Shown: one piece after another, positions 28,509-39,447 of the stretch
How positions within the stretch are numbered: position 1 is the stretch's first letter
Layout of the letters: the number at the start of each line of letters is the position of its first letter
DNA from: Sanghuangporus weigelae
Lineage: Eukaryota; Basidiomycota; Agaricomycetes; Hymenochaetales; Hymenochaetaceae
DNA length: 64,000 nt
Direction: 5' to 3'
Assembly: GCA_033182465.1 (NCBI GenBank)
Contig: CP137321.1
Coordinates: 2,294,001-2,358,000 of the forward strand
Made by a program: the position numbers and the translations under genes
The notes under the pieces: generated by a model
Told to the model about the DNA's origin: nothing
Databases searched by the model: none
The model's input: the letters and a program-made list of their open reading frames with translations, nothing else

Positions 28509-28571
28509 TGCGATGTGCGCGGTGTGATCCTTTGGAATGTACCATGCCGAGTGGCATTTCTGACGAATCAT
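28509..28571 (+). promoter_or_regulatory. Upstream block shared by the three repeat-peptide genes (copy A)
   Basis: This copy starts TGCGATGTGCGCGGTGTGAT and ends TTTCTGACGAATCAT. Related blocks precede the other two paralogues at 30581-30644 and 31936-31997, in the same orientation and at a similar distance (about 200-330 bp) from the start codon. Conservation by common descent is seen; a regulatory role is inferred. Confidence 0.45.
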
Positions 28572-28839: not shown

Positions 28840-29391
28840 ATGAAGTTCTCGCTCGCTACTTCTTTCTCGGCTGTCCTGGCTTCGCTATTCGTTGCTCAGC
28901 AGGTTGGTGCAGCGGGCATTGTTTGTGACCACATTTGCTTGCCGGGAGAGACGGGTTGCTGCGTCCCGCCTCCGACCACGACTGCGACTCCGGCCTTGGA
29001 AAGGAGACAGGAGACTACATCGACGCCTGGCCTGGAATGCTTCCACTTCTGCTTCCCGGGCGAGACAGGTTGCTGCGTTCCTCCACCCACCCCGACTCCA
29101 ACCTTGGAGAAGAGGCAAACGACGACGACACCTGCATTGCACTGCCTCCACTTCTGCCTTCCTGGCGAAACTGGCTGCTGCGTCACGTCGTCGACTCCGA
29201 CTCCAACTCCGCTCCTGAAAGAGAGAGCGTGCCAGCACTTCTGCCTTCCCGGCGAGACAGGCTGCTGCATCCCCCCGCCGACTACTACCCCAACTCCGGC
29301 TTTGAAGGAGCGAGCTGAAGACATCTGCCAGATCATTTGCCCGGTGGGAGTGACTACTGGCTGCTGCGTCCCCGCTCAGACCCCTGCTTGA
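28840..29391 (+). CDS. Secreted cysteine-rich repeat protein with dibasic processing sites (copy A, 5 repeats)
   Basis: 183 residues, no intron. Residues 1-24 form a signal peptide (MKFSLATSFSAVLASLFVAQ...) with likely cleavage near VGA-AG. The mature part is five tandem units, each with four cysteines: CDHICLPGETGCC, CFHFCFPGETGCC, CLHFCLPGETGCC, CQHFCLPGETGCC and CQIICPVGVTTGCC, pattern C-x3-C-x6/7-CC. Units are joined by Thr/Pro-rich linkers that end in basic pairs or near-pairs (LERR, LEKR, LKER, LKER). This is the layout of Kex2-processed repeat precursors (KEPs) known in fungi: signal peptide plus repeats bounded by KR/RR. Note that two of the four boundaries here are KER rather than a true pair. 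Function is unknown; candidate outcomes are small two-disulphide peptides or an uncleaved repeat effector. Paralogues follow at 30880 and 32195. Confidence 0.85.
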   Translation: MKFSLATSFSAVLASLFVAQQVGAAGIVCDHICLPGETGCCVPPPTTTATPALERRQETTSTPGLECFHFCFPGETGCCVPPPTPTPTLEKRQTTTTPALHCLHFCLPGETGCCVTSSTPTPTPLLKERACQHFCLPGETGCCIPPPTTTPTPALKERAEDICQIICPVGVTTGCCVPAQTPA

Positions 29392-30475
29392 TTGCAAATA
29401 TCGATTTTGTCGCGTCAATCTCCCATTTTCGCAAGCATTTGTCATGTGAGGATTTGAGCGTTCTTTTGAAACGTTAGCTTGTTCCTGATCTTCATGTTAT
29501 ATTTGCAGGGTAGAGAAAAGGAACTTATATGAGCTTCGTAGGAAGCAAAGAGAAATTTAATTATGGGATTGGATGATAGTTGTTTTGTTGGCTGGACAAC
29601 TCCCGCTGTCTCGAGCATTCTTGGATACGAATGTCTTCTGTATTATAAAATTCTTGGTATAGGTGGAAGCAGGTTGGCGTAGTGTATACTTAATGAGATC
29701 TACAAGTGATAGTGCATTCGAGAGAAATGAATCTCTACCTTTGTTTAGTTTTTTGAGCAAGTTTGATACCGATACCGAAACTGGGAATTGTGGCCGTGGG
29801 AACGGACAACTTCAAGAAGCGTCGTGGCGATGCACATGATAATCGAGCCATCACTAGCCATAAAATTTGTCTACACCAAATGCTACGGTCTTCTCGATCC
29901 TTTATGCAGAGCCTCACGACCATAAATCCTTTCAATAGGCGCCGATGAATAATTCCACACATTCAGAGTGAACCTTTTGCTGAAGGAACCTATATTTGAT
30001 CTCATTGGCTAATTTCAGTAAGCGAATACTCGATTTTCAGCATTACATGCAGACCATCGAATCTTGCTTAATACTCTGAAAAACTTTGTTTAACTTATAC
30101 GTCTTTTTCAGGACTGAGTACATTTATTGTTTCGTCTCATCTCAGAAATGCTCGAACTTAGAAGTTGTTCGCTAGCTAGATCTCTACTGGGGATCATGGA
30201 ATATTTGCTTGCTTGCATACATCCAGTCTGTTCTGCATCTTGAGGTCCAAGTCTATCCACGCGTGAACATATTCTAGAGAAGCTTTTTGGCGACGCAAAA
30301 GTGTAAAAGCTTCTTTTGGACTACCGCCGTCTTATGCAAAAAAAGGACGTATCGCACAGCATGGTTTGTCATCTATCCAGTACCATTCTTTGGAACTTGT
30401 CCACCGCGTCTACTATAGTTTTTGGGCCTCGCTGATCGATTGATAAGTCATGAGGCGGCAGGCACACTTACCGAA

Positions 30476-30501
30476 TTGATGCTGTCGCTACTCTGAGCAT
30501 T
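30476..30501 (+). repeat. Distal promoter duplicate (copy B)
   Basis: TTGATGCTGTCGCTACTCTG followed by AGCATT. The same string with two changes lies at 31796-31821, 404 bp and 399 bp upstream of the start codons of genes B and C respectively. It marks the far edge of a duplicated upstream region of about 400 bp. Confidence 0.7.
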
Positions 30502-30580
30502 CGTGTCGGTTCGGATCTTGTTCGGTGACCTTGATACTTGTTGTGTACGGTTTCTCCATTACGCTCTCACGAACTTCTAA

Positions 30581-30644
30581 CCGCGAAGCGCTCGGCCTGA
30601 TATCTTGCAGGGTATCAAAACGAGCGCCGTTTCTAACGAATCAT
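30581..30644 (+). promoter_or_regulatory. Upstream block shared by the three repeat-peptide genes (copy B)
   Basis: It reads CCGCGAAGCGCTCGGCCTGA at its start and TTTCTAACGAATCAT at its end, matching copy A at 14 of 15 positions in the last segment. It lies about 240-300 bp upstream of the ATG at 30880. The role is inferred from conservation only. Confidence 0.45.
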
Positions 30645-30780
30645 GGGCAGTGGTTCACAGTACTTAACTTTCGTTGATGTTTCAAGTCGGTGCATTGCTT
30701 TCATGCTGCAGAGGGCATTCCATCACACATATTGGAAACCGTTCAAAGAATAGGAATCCCAGGACTAAGGTGCTAGCATT

Positions 30781-30788
30781 TATTAAAA
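30781..30788 (+). promoter_or_regulatory. TATA-like element of repeat-peptide gene B
   Basis: TATTAAAA, about 95 bp before the ATG at 30880, in the position equivalent to the TATA elements of the two paralogues. Confidence 0.4.
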
Positions 30789-30879
30789 ACCCTTTCTCGG
30801 AGCTCCTTACAAGGACAGTCCTATCTAAATACTGCTCATACTCGTTTTTTTTCTAAACCTCTCATTTCATTTCGTCGCA

Positions 30880-31176
30880 ATGAAGCTCTCACTCTCATCG
30901 CCTCTCACTACCATCCTTGCTTCACTACTCGTCGCACAGCACGTCGTCGCAGTTGCGATTAACTGCGAGCATCCGTGCAGAGAAGGCGAGACTGGCTGCT
31001 GCGTGGGACCTGCCCCTGCCCCTCCTCCGGAGAAGAGAGCAGAAGTCTTCTGCCAACATATTTGCGTCGACGGAGAGACCGGGTGCTGCATTCCCGCCAC
31101 ACCGCCGAAGAAGAGGAATTGCCTGGTTGTATGCCTTCCCGGAGAGCCCATTAATGAATGCTGCCCTATCGAGTGA
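30880..31176 (+). CDS. Secreted cysteine-rich repeat protein with dibasic processing sites (copy B, 3 repeats)
   Basis: 98 residues, no intron, paralogue of the gene at 28840. The signal peptide is MKLSLSSPLTTILASLLVAQ..., closely similar to copy A. Three units follow: CEHPCREGETGCC, CQHICVDGETGCC and CLVVCLPGEPINECC. The boundaries are PEKR-AE and PKKR-N, both true Kex2-type Lys-Arg sites. The spacing C-x3-C-x6-CC is kept in the first two units and relaxed to x8 in the last. The residue after KR is Ala-Glu in the second unit, as in copies A and C (ERAEDICQ, EKRAEDICQ), so the boundary itself is conserved. The protein is short and has no other domain. The function is not known. Confidence 0.85.
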   Translation: MKLSLSSPLTTILASLLVAQHVVAVAINCEHPCREGETGCCVGPAPAPPPEKRAEVFCQHICVDGETGCCIPATPPKKRNCLVVCLPGEPINECCPIE

Positions 31177-31795
31177 TGGATCTGTTTCTACCATTCGGTA
31201 TCTATTCCCTTCTCGCGAACATGCATGGTGGGCTTCCTCGAGCATTTCCTTGTTTGTTCAAACAAGCACTTATGGGATATTTTCAGGTTCGAAATTACGT
31301 TGCGTGCTTCCTTTCGGTAATCGAGTGTCGAAGGAGATTTATTGGTCAGGACTTGGAATCCGACTCATAGTATGATATAATGGAACCGTACATAATTAAG
31401 CTATTTGCATAGTATTTCAAAGCAATGATGGTCTGATAATGAAACTCCATTGATTCAGACTATGGGGACACCCTGGTCATCTCAAATGGATTCTTAGCTC
31501 TGTCTTCGTATCATGTTAATTCTTCATTTATTAATAAATTTTGATTGGTGATTCGAGGCGTGGGAACATCCCGAGGCCAGGCATGTGGGGATACATAAAG
31601 ACAATTCCGCACTTCGTAATGAACCACCATCGGGACAAAACAAGGAATAGTTCACAGAAAGTGCCACACTCTCATCGCTTCTCCAGGATTATCACGATCT
31701 ATGCTGCTGACGCCTTGATGCTTTCTGGGGTTTGTATAAGAATGTCTGCTCGCTTTCACTCGCACATTCAGGGTAGAGCCGTTTTACTGACGGGG

Positions 31796-31821
31796 TTGAT
31801 GTTGTCGCTATTCTGAGCATT
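31796..31821 (+). repeat. Distal promoter duplicate (copy C)
   Basis: TTGATGTTGTCGCTATTCTG followed by AGCATT, the partner of 30476-30501. The near-equal distance to the next start codon shows that the whole upstream region was copied together with the gene. Confidence 0.7.
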
Positions 31822-31935
31822 GACATTCTCAGCTTCATTCATTCTAAGCTGGTTACCTGGATATGTTGCAACGACTTTGTTCCGACTGAAATGCGCTGGG
31901 TCTTCATGTTATGCTCATGCTCACGGATATTTGTC

Positions 31936-31997
31936 TGCGATGCGCTCGGTCTGATATTTGCAGGGCAGCACGCTGAGCGCGGTTCCCGACGAATCGC
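31936..31997 (+). promoter_or_regulatory. Upstream block shared by the three repeat-peptide genes (copy C)
   Basis: Begins TGCGATGCGCTCGGTCTGAT and ends CCCGACGAATCGC. It lies about 200-260 bp upstream of the ATG at 32195. The first half matches copy A (TGCGATG) and copy B (GCGCTCGG, CTGATAT). The function is inferred. Confidence 0.45.
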
Positions 31998-32104
31998 GTG
32001 TCCAGTCGCCTAGGTAAATGGTTACTGCTATTGACCTTATGTCAGAAACCTGTAACGCATCATTGGGGATTCTCGGTGTATTACCTTGAGACGTCTCCAA
32101 GAAC

Positions 32105-32110
32105 TATAAA
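32105..32110 (+). promoter_or_regulatory. TATA box of repeat-peptide gene C
   Basis: TATAAA about 90 bp upstream of the ATG at 32195. Confidence 0.5.
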
Positions 32111-32194
32111 CATTGCATCTGAAACAGGTTTTTCCAGCAAGAATCACCAGTTGAACACTCATTCCACACACAATTCAAATCTATTTCCGCGACG

Positions 32195-32581
32195 ATGAGG
32201 CTTTCATTTGCATCCTCATTCCCAACCATCCTCGTATTTCTACTGTCCATCCGACAAGCTCGAGCAGGGGTGGCCAACTGCGATATCATCTGCCCGCCGG
32301 GCGTGACTAGTGGCTGCTGCATCCCGATCCCAAACTTGGACGAACGAAGCGACGGATGCCTACAGCCCTGTATCCCAGGCGAGGACATAGGGTGCTGCAC
32401 CCCCGTGCCGCTGGAGAAGCGAGCTGAAGACATTTGTCAACATGTTTGCGCGGACGGAGAGACTGGGTGTTGTATCCCCATCGCATCACCACTGGAGAAG
32501 GAGAAGAGAGAGGAGGACCTCCCCTGTCCGCACATTTGTCCTCCTGGAGTGACGGGTGAATGCTGCATTCGTGATGCATAG
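32195..32581 (+). CDS. Secreted cysteine-rich repeat protein with dibasic processing sites (copy C, 4 repeats)
   Basis: 128 residues, no intron. The signal peptide is MRLSFASSFPTILVFLLSIR..., ending near ARAG. Four units: CDIICPPGVTSGCC, CLQPCIPGEDIGCC, CQHVCADGETGCC and CPHICPPGVTGECC. Boundaries read NLDER, PLEKR-AEDICQ and EKEKR-EEDL, so two are proper Lys-Arg sites and one is a lone Arg preceded by Glu. The third unit is nearly the same as the second unit of copy B (CQHICVDGETGCC), which suggests that units are exchanged or conserved between paralogues. Linkers are shorter and poorer in Thr than in copy A. Same layout and presumably the same role as copies A and B; that role is not known. 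Confidence 0.85.
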   Translation: MRLSFASSFPTILVFLLSIRQARAGVANCDIICPPGVTSGCCIPIPNLDERSDGCLQPCIPGEDIGCCTPVPLEKRAEDICQHVCADGETGCCIPIASPLEKEKREEDLPCPHICPPGVTGECCIRDA

Positions 32582-39207: not shown

Positions 39208-39363
<156 letters not shown>

Positions 39364-39447
39364 ATACTACTTATGTCAATTTTTTCTGCATCGCATCTAC
39401 GCATCATATATATACACTCGCTAAGGGTTGCGAGCAAAATAAAAAAT

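Follow-up and report, generated by a model that had tools for sequence, protein, structure and literature searches.

Three neighbouring genes of Sanghuangporus weigelae encode candidate secreted precursors with four-cysteine repeats between Kex2-type sites

Fungal KEX2-processed repeat proteins (KEPs) are secreted precursors made of tandem related units (Le Marquer 2019, PMC6339444; Umemura 2020, PMC7329392; Vogt 2022, PMC9769878), and peptides derived from them have been seen by mass spectrometry in other agaricomycetes (PMC9769878). The ustiloxin- and phomopsin-type dikaritins likewise arise from a secreted repeat precursor bounded by Kex2 sites, and a secreted multi-copy form is shared by ascomycete alpha-pheromone precursors and alpha-pheromone-like KEPs, some of which have two conserved cysteines per peptide (PMC6339444). 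Further repeat precursors of basidiomycetes, with biotic or surface functions, are Laccaria MiSSP8 and Ustilago Rep1 and Rsp3; compared by description only, these lack a four-cysteine unit of the kind reported here in the accounts given of them (PMC7329392, PMC8528282). We analysed a 64-kb window (C4:2294001-2358000) of the 33,870,148-base assembly of the wood-inhabiting mushroom Sanghuangporus weigelae, which comprises 13 contigs, and describe three neighbouring genes in it, genes 1-3 (Table 1). With KEPs they share a putatively secreted precursor with tandem related units and dibasic KR or RR at six of the nine internal boundaries, in a genome that holds a Kex2-like protease. They differ from KEPs in having four conserved cysteines per unit, diverged units, ER at the other three boundaries and three KR/RR fragments each. 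We consider it probable that genes 1-3 encode secreted precursors from which Kex2 cleavage frees two-disulphide peptides; a part in biotic interactions is possible.

The open reading frames and a pattern scan agree with a preliminary description of the locus in placing here three uninterrupted genes with 5, 3 and 4 units, where at least three related repeats per protein are expected of a KEP. By eye, each N-terminus displays M-[KR], a hydrophobic stretch and small residues at about positions 22-24, as in a putative signal peptide. All 48 cysteines (20, 12 and 16 in genes 1, 2 and 3) fall inside the 12 units with the pattern C-x3-C-x6..8-CC, and for none of the three genes was the observed number of units reached in 20,000 residue shuffles of the part after residue 24. 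A six-frame scan of the 64 kb returned 13 occurrences of the pattern, 12 of which are these units. Loop 2 was described earlier as having 6 or 8 residues; the pattern holds in all 12 units, but the loop measures 6 residues in seven of them, 7 in four and 8 in one. Similarly, the proposed core CxHxCLPGETGCC fits four gene 1 units, to which LPGETGCC (once FPGETGCC) is confined within the window, but overall 8 of the 12 units have the histidine of CxHxC. Its presence follows loop length, being found in 7/7 units with a 6-residue loop and in 1/5 with a longer one (Fisher P 0.010, for units that are not independent), and thus two sorts of unit can be told apart, CxHxC-x2-GETG-CC and one with a longer loop. 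Longer-loop units stand last in all three genes and make up three of the four units of gene 3. The linkers, proposed to be of Pro/Thr type, are Thr-rich in gene 1, but genes 2 and 3 have shorter, Pro-rich ones with few Thr; that they end in KR, RR or ER was borne out at all nine boundaries. None of the three proteins contains Tyr or Trp.

The core is conserved at the codon level. Pairwise comparison of the GETGCC codons in the seven units with a 6-residue loop gave 0 nonsynonymous against 63 synonymous differences (21 pairs, not independent of one another), and over the whole core of these units the ratio of nonsynonymous to synonymous proportions of differences (pN/pS) is 0.24, with a pS of 0.77. 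The precursors form a real family under selection, and the high synonymous divergence of the cores indicates that the units are old. In blastn, unit 1 of gene 3 best matches unit 5 of gene 1 (82% over 51 bp), and unit 3 of gene 3 best matches unit 2 of gene 2 (81% over 67 bp), which points to gain, loss or shuffling of units after their origin.

The boundaries between units resemble Kex2 substrates. P4 is occupied by Leu in six of the nine, by Pro in two and by Lys in one; Kex2 is described as preferring Leu or another aliphatic residue, Pro included, at this position, as tolerating Glu at P2, and as having LxxR for an expanded motif (PMC8528282). Lys and Arg are concentrated here, 19 of the 21 that follow residue 24 lying in P4-P1 of the nine boundaries; since the boundaries were placed at Arg and the nine P1 arginines are therefore given, this count is partly circular and its hypergeometric P of 3e-19 is inflated. 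The genome contains candidate processing enzymes. On the same contig, on the minus strand near C4:2214445-2215800, lies a Kex2-like gene with S8 and P-domain exons and, after the latter, a hydrophobic segment (by eye) in the last open frame; a further P-domain match is found on C3, and there are S10 carboxypeptidase matches in the genome. In Coprinopsis, KEP peptides were still present in every kex knockout, which was interpreted as redundancy among three proteases (PMC9769878).

Taken together, these features suggest the following route from precursor to peptide, of which signal cleavage, disulphide formation, proteolysis, release and role are all inferred. The signal peptide would take the precursors into the secretory pathway, where each four-cysteine unit would oxidise to give two disulphides. 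A Kex2-like protease of the Golgi would then cut after KR and RR, and probably after L-x-E-R as well, and a carboxypeptidase would trim the basic ends. Such processing might yield as many as 12 acidic peptides, each about 19-36 residues long and most of them consisting of the cysteine core and a Pro or Pro/Thr tail. The predicted K/R-trimmed peptides have 19-36 residues and a net charge of -1 to -5 (K/R minus D/E), and they share the lack of Tyr and Trp.

Relatives were sought in protein databases with gene 1, with gene 3, and with an alignment of genes 1-3 and P0001, the last search scoring the 8000 candidates with the most shared words. Gene 1 retrieved one relative among 1488 candidates, P0001 of Sanghuangporus vaninii (Hymenochaetaceae). 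This nearest protein has 3 units and is identical to gene 1 at 113 of 119 positions if one gap of 64 residues, the length of two units, is allowed. The gap reflects either recombination between repeats that removed two units or an intron error in the gene model; in the window, the two corresponding places resemble one another over a stretch close to GT and AG dinucleotides, so an intron error is possible beside a true loss. No S. vaninii counterpart of gene 2 or gene 3 was present among the candidates scored, gene 2 having been queried through the alignment. The alignment returned, besides P0001, the proteins P0002 (E 2.6e-8) and P0003 of Rickenella mellea (E 0.23). P0002, an ENA protein of 73 residues with two units, is encoded on a 770-base contig and contains two copies of the 17 residues CDHICLPGETGCCVPPP, a stretch that matches unit 1 of gene 1 exactly, while the rest of the precursor differs. 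P0003, from another member of the Hymenochaetales, is likely a relative, because it has two pattern units, one of them with a CxHxC...GETGCC core, a single SKR between the units, and the same order. Five protein queries of the S. weigelae genome itself detected no place beyond genes 1-3, these counts being lower bounds; P0003, used in this way, reached genes 1 and 2 only. A scan of viral contigs with P0002 found no relative, and its single matching locus in prokaryotic genome contigs (L027, Actirhodobacter) was dismissed, its translation lacking the GETGCC core.

A known structural domain in the repeats was the outcome named beforehand as speaking against a new family; we accepted as such a Pfam match above the curated cut-off or a PDB sequence match with E <0.001. 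None was found by Pfam, by PDB sequence and profile searches or by Foldseek. The single Pfam match of gene 1, to PC-Esterase (E 0.00011), scores 22.7 bits against a cut-off of 27 and covers 14 profile positions, and we regard it as chance. Genes 2 and 3 have no Pfam match; searched singly, 11 of the 12 units gave 0 families, and the remaining one was too short. A PDB sequence search with gene 1 returned 0 matches, and a profile of the 12 units had its best match in protein Z (E 0.088), which at a length of 10 residues we likewise attribute to chance. Foldseek gave 0 matches with a low-confidence model of the unit. The model of P0002, too poor for a fold search, contains one helix at 4-18. The relatives in S. 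vaninii, P0002 and, more weakly, Rickenella mellea agree with the earlier proposal of a candidate new family. Kinship of KEP type also stands as far as repeats between Kex2-type sites are concerned, but the analogy with dikaritins that came with it does not, as the proteins have no Tyr and the contig lacks a UstYa match.

Several observations weigh against the release of Kex2-cut peptides. The three ER boundaries fit the broader LxxR view of Kex2 alone, and one of them, LDER in gene 3, has Asp at P3, where it is described as unfavourable (PMC8528282). One KEP pipeline calls for at least four fragments when a protein is cut at KR/RR, or else KK (PMC6339444); with the signal end set at residue 24, genes 1-3 yield 3 fragments each at KR/RR, so that all fall below this number, as do P0001, P0002 and P0003. 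With the ER sites added, the counts are 5, 3 and 4 for genes 1, 2 and 3. A different KEP filter asks for two or more cleavage sites and for a fragment that resembles two others (PMC9769878); genes 1-3 have two KR/RR sites per precursor. Also unfavourable are the gene 3 query, which found no relative among 13 candidates, the weak database match of P0003, insufficient by its E-value alone, and the low confidence of the predicted structures (mean pLDDT 66 for the unit and 55 for P0002). Finally, K and R are absent from P0002 beyond residue 2, which leaves no Kex2-type site between its units, so that peptide release is perhaps not universal among these proteins.

Table 1. Features of the three-gene locus, in positions of the 64-kb window.
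Feature	Position	Strand	Description
Gene 1	28840..29391	+	uninterrupted ATG-to-stop open reading frame, 183 aa, 5 units, signal-like residues 1 to ~24
Gene 1 units	28924, 29038, 29143, 29230, 29326	+	C-x3-C-x6..8-CC pattern scan
Gene 1 boundaries			LERR, LEKR, LKER, LKER
Gene 1 upstream block	28510..28571	+	~330 bp before ATG; blastn and alignment
Gene 2	30880..31176	+	uninterrupted ATG-to-stop open reading frame, 98 aa, 3 units, signal-like stretch
Gene 2 units	30964, 31051, 31120	+	C-x3-C-x6..8-CC pattern scan
Gene 2 boundaries			PEKR, PKKR
Gene 2 upstream block	30583..30644	+	~297 bp before ATG; blastn and alignment
Gene 2 second upstream block	30476..30501	+	26 bp, 92% identical to gene 3 copy
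Gene 3	32195..32581	+	uninterrupted ATG-to-stop open reading frame, 128 aa, 4 units, signal-like stretch
Gene 3 units	32279, 32357, 32435, 32525	+	C-x3-C-x6..8-CC pattern scan
Gene 3 boundaries			LDER, LEKR, KEKR
Gene 3 upstream block	31936..31995	+	~258 bp before ATG; blastn and alignment
Gene 3 second upstream block	31796..31821	+	26 bp, 92% identical to gene 2 copy

Similar blocks precede the three genes. Those of genes 2 and 3 share 78% identity over 60 bp (blastn, E 3e-8); the gene 1 block is 69% identical to that of gene 2 (E 0.034) and 70% to that of gene 3 (E 0.040), values that are weak alone. Together with the second blocks of genes 2 and 3, they fit a set of tandem paralogues with a putative retained regulatory stretch. 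A genome search with the gene 2 block returned itself alone and, having missed both copies seen by blastn, is uninformative on the distribution of the block; a promoter scan of bacterial type found none and is inapplicable to a fungus. A Pfam scan of 18 open frames around the genes returned a match for 13, in every case to an ordinary cellular family: deoxyhypusine synthase, Sec7/DCB, an SLA1-like PH/SH3 protein and a translation-factor GTPase on one flank, and an ABC ATPase, a mitochondrial-carrier-type protein, Sir2, PP2C, an amino acid permease and M24 and M28 peptidases on the other. Elsewhere in the window, a TAC microsatellite of about 54 copies (39208-39371) gives rise to a spurious poly-Tyr open frame.

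In the strongest competing explanation, the units would stay uncut and work as disulphide modules in tandem on an O-glycosylated Pro/Thr stalk, for instance in a protein of the cell surface or matrix with repeated binding modules, the basic sites being only partly used. P0002, which keeps two identical cores with no K or R between them, would suit such a protein, as would the Thr/Pro-rich linkers of gene 1 and the three boundaries that are not dibasic. On the other hand, basic residues gather at the boundaries (19 of 21, partly by circular definition) and Leu occupies P4 in six of nine, the linkers of genes 2 and 3 contain few Thr, and no GPI-like (glycosylphosphatidylinositol) tail is apparent by eye. 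We regard this explanation as unlikely.

Less probable still, and in our view improbable, is a function in metal binding, in which C-x-H-x-C and CC would supply four thiols and one imidazole to secreted metal-scavenging or metal-buffering peptides. The histidine is present in all seven units with a 6-residue loop, encoded by two codons (CAC and CAT), and absent from four of the five others; it also occurs in both units of P0002 and in one of the two of P0003. However, 4 of the 12 units lack it, GETG is as strictly kept as the His in the units with a 6-residue loop, and no metal gene was found among the 18 neighbouring frames scanned. The secretory pathway, moreover, favours disulphides over free thiols, which disfavours such a use of the cysteines.

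Membership of two known classes was rejected. That the genes encode alpha-pheromone-like signalling peptides is very unlikely: KEPs resembling alpha-pheromone precursors have been described in Basidiomycota, one printed motif having a His-Leu-Pro-Gly stretch between two cysteines (PMC6339444), and the genome has a DPPIV_N (Ste13-type) match, but an XA/XP dipeptide for Ste13 follows 0 of 9 boundaries, and the units have four cysteines rather than two, a different core and no Trp. Dikaritin-type precursors of ribosomally synthesised and post-translationally modified peptides, cyclised by UstYa, would share the signal-like stretch and the repeats between Kex2 sites, and UstYa (DUF3328) has 13 matches, by exon count, in the genome, but none of these lies on C4 (they are on C2, C7 and C8), the proteins have no Tyr for such a cyclisation and no Trp, and the neighbouring frames with a Pfam match are all of ordinary cellular families, which leaves this origin next to no likelihood. 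By eye, no open frame with at least four KR/RR looked like a repeat precursor in the 1.5-kb flanks inspected, those of eight among the 13 UstYa matches. Two pairs of UstYa matches on C7, at 540257-541707 (L006/L010) and 586680-588114 (L007/L012), lie about 46 kb apart in opposite orientation; beside each is a near-identical open frame of 203 residues, and the arrangement looks like an inverted duplication of a UstYa locus.

If Kex2-cut peptides are indeed released from genes 1-3, they may act on other organisms, such as the host tree or competitors, rather than in mating or housekeeping. We hold this role tentatively, with rather more doubt than confidence, and favour it because the characterised examples of KEPs are mostly biotic (mating, virulence and mutualism) and because knocking out six kep genes caused no apparent phenotype when Coprinopsis was grown axenically (PMC9769878). 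The predicted peptides are negatively charged and lack Tyr and Trp. The common type of antimicrobial peptide is cationic, and that type is therefore disfavoured. The identity of 17 residues between gene 1 and P0002, in an otherwise different precursor, points to a specific partner.

Alpha-conotoxins are short peptides with two disulphides and one vicinal pair of cysteines, in the order CC-xn-C-xm-C. The units of genes 1-3 have this order reversed, C-x3-C-x6-CC, and we claim no homology. The string PGETGCC does not occur in the literature searched, and that literature, on Kex2 with cysteine, repeat or basidiomycete, showed no described four-cysteine family, in agreement with the preliminary description; the supplementary tables of the KEP surveys lay outside the search. 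Neither PMC7329392 nor PMC9769878 uses a word beginning cystein or disulf in its main text. Among the types reported by a survey of 1461 genomes are a widely distributed one, for which Sanghuangporus and Rickenella are named, and a five-copy one in Rickenella (PMC7329392); it is possible that the four-cysteine motif is listed there, the sequences of the types being given in figures and supplements.

A broader reading, which we put somewhat short of an even chance, is that Hymenochaetales possess a family, absent from the literature searched, of acidic two-disulphide peptides of the size of hormones or effectors, which would be freed in sets from Kex2-type precursors and have a CxHxC-x2-GETGCC core fixed by selection and a reversed conotoxin-like order of cysteines. 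As part of the same joint reading, such a family might have been overlooked through the rule of four KR/RR fragments and through peptidomics without reduction. For agaricomycetes, the KEP peptides seen by mass spectrometry were described as linear with minimal modification, and words beginning alkylat, iodoacet, DTT or carbamidomethyl are absent from the main text of that report (PMC9769878); together with the three-fragment count of genes 1-3, this wording suggests that such peptides may escape as a class. There is thus a possible blind spot for four-cysteine repeat precursors in KEP surveys and peptidomics, and should the peptides be released, the fungal Kex2-repeat peptides would gain a disulphide-stabilised branch.

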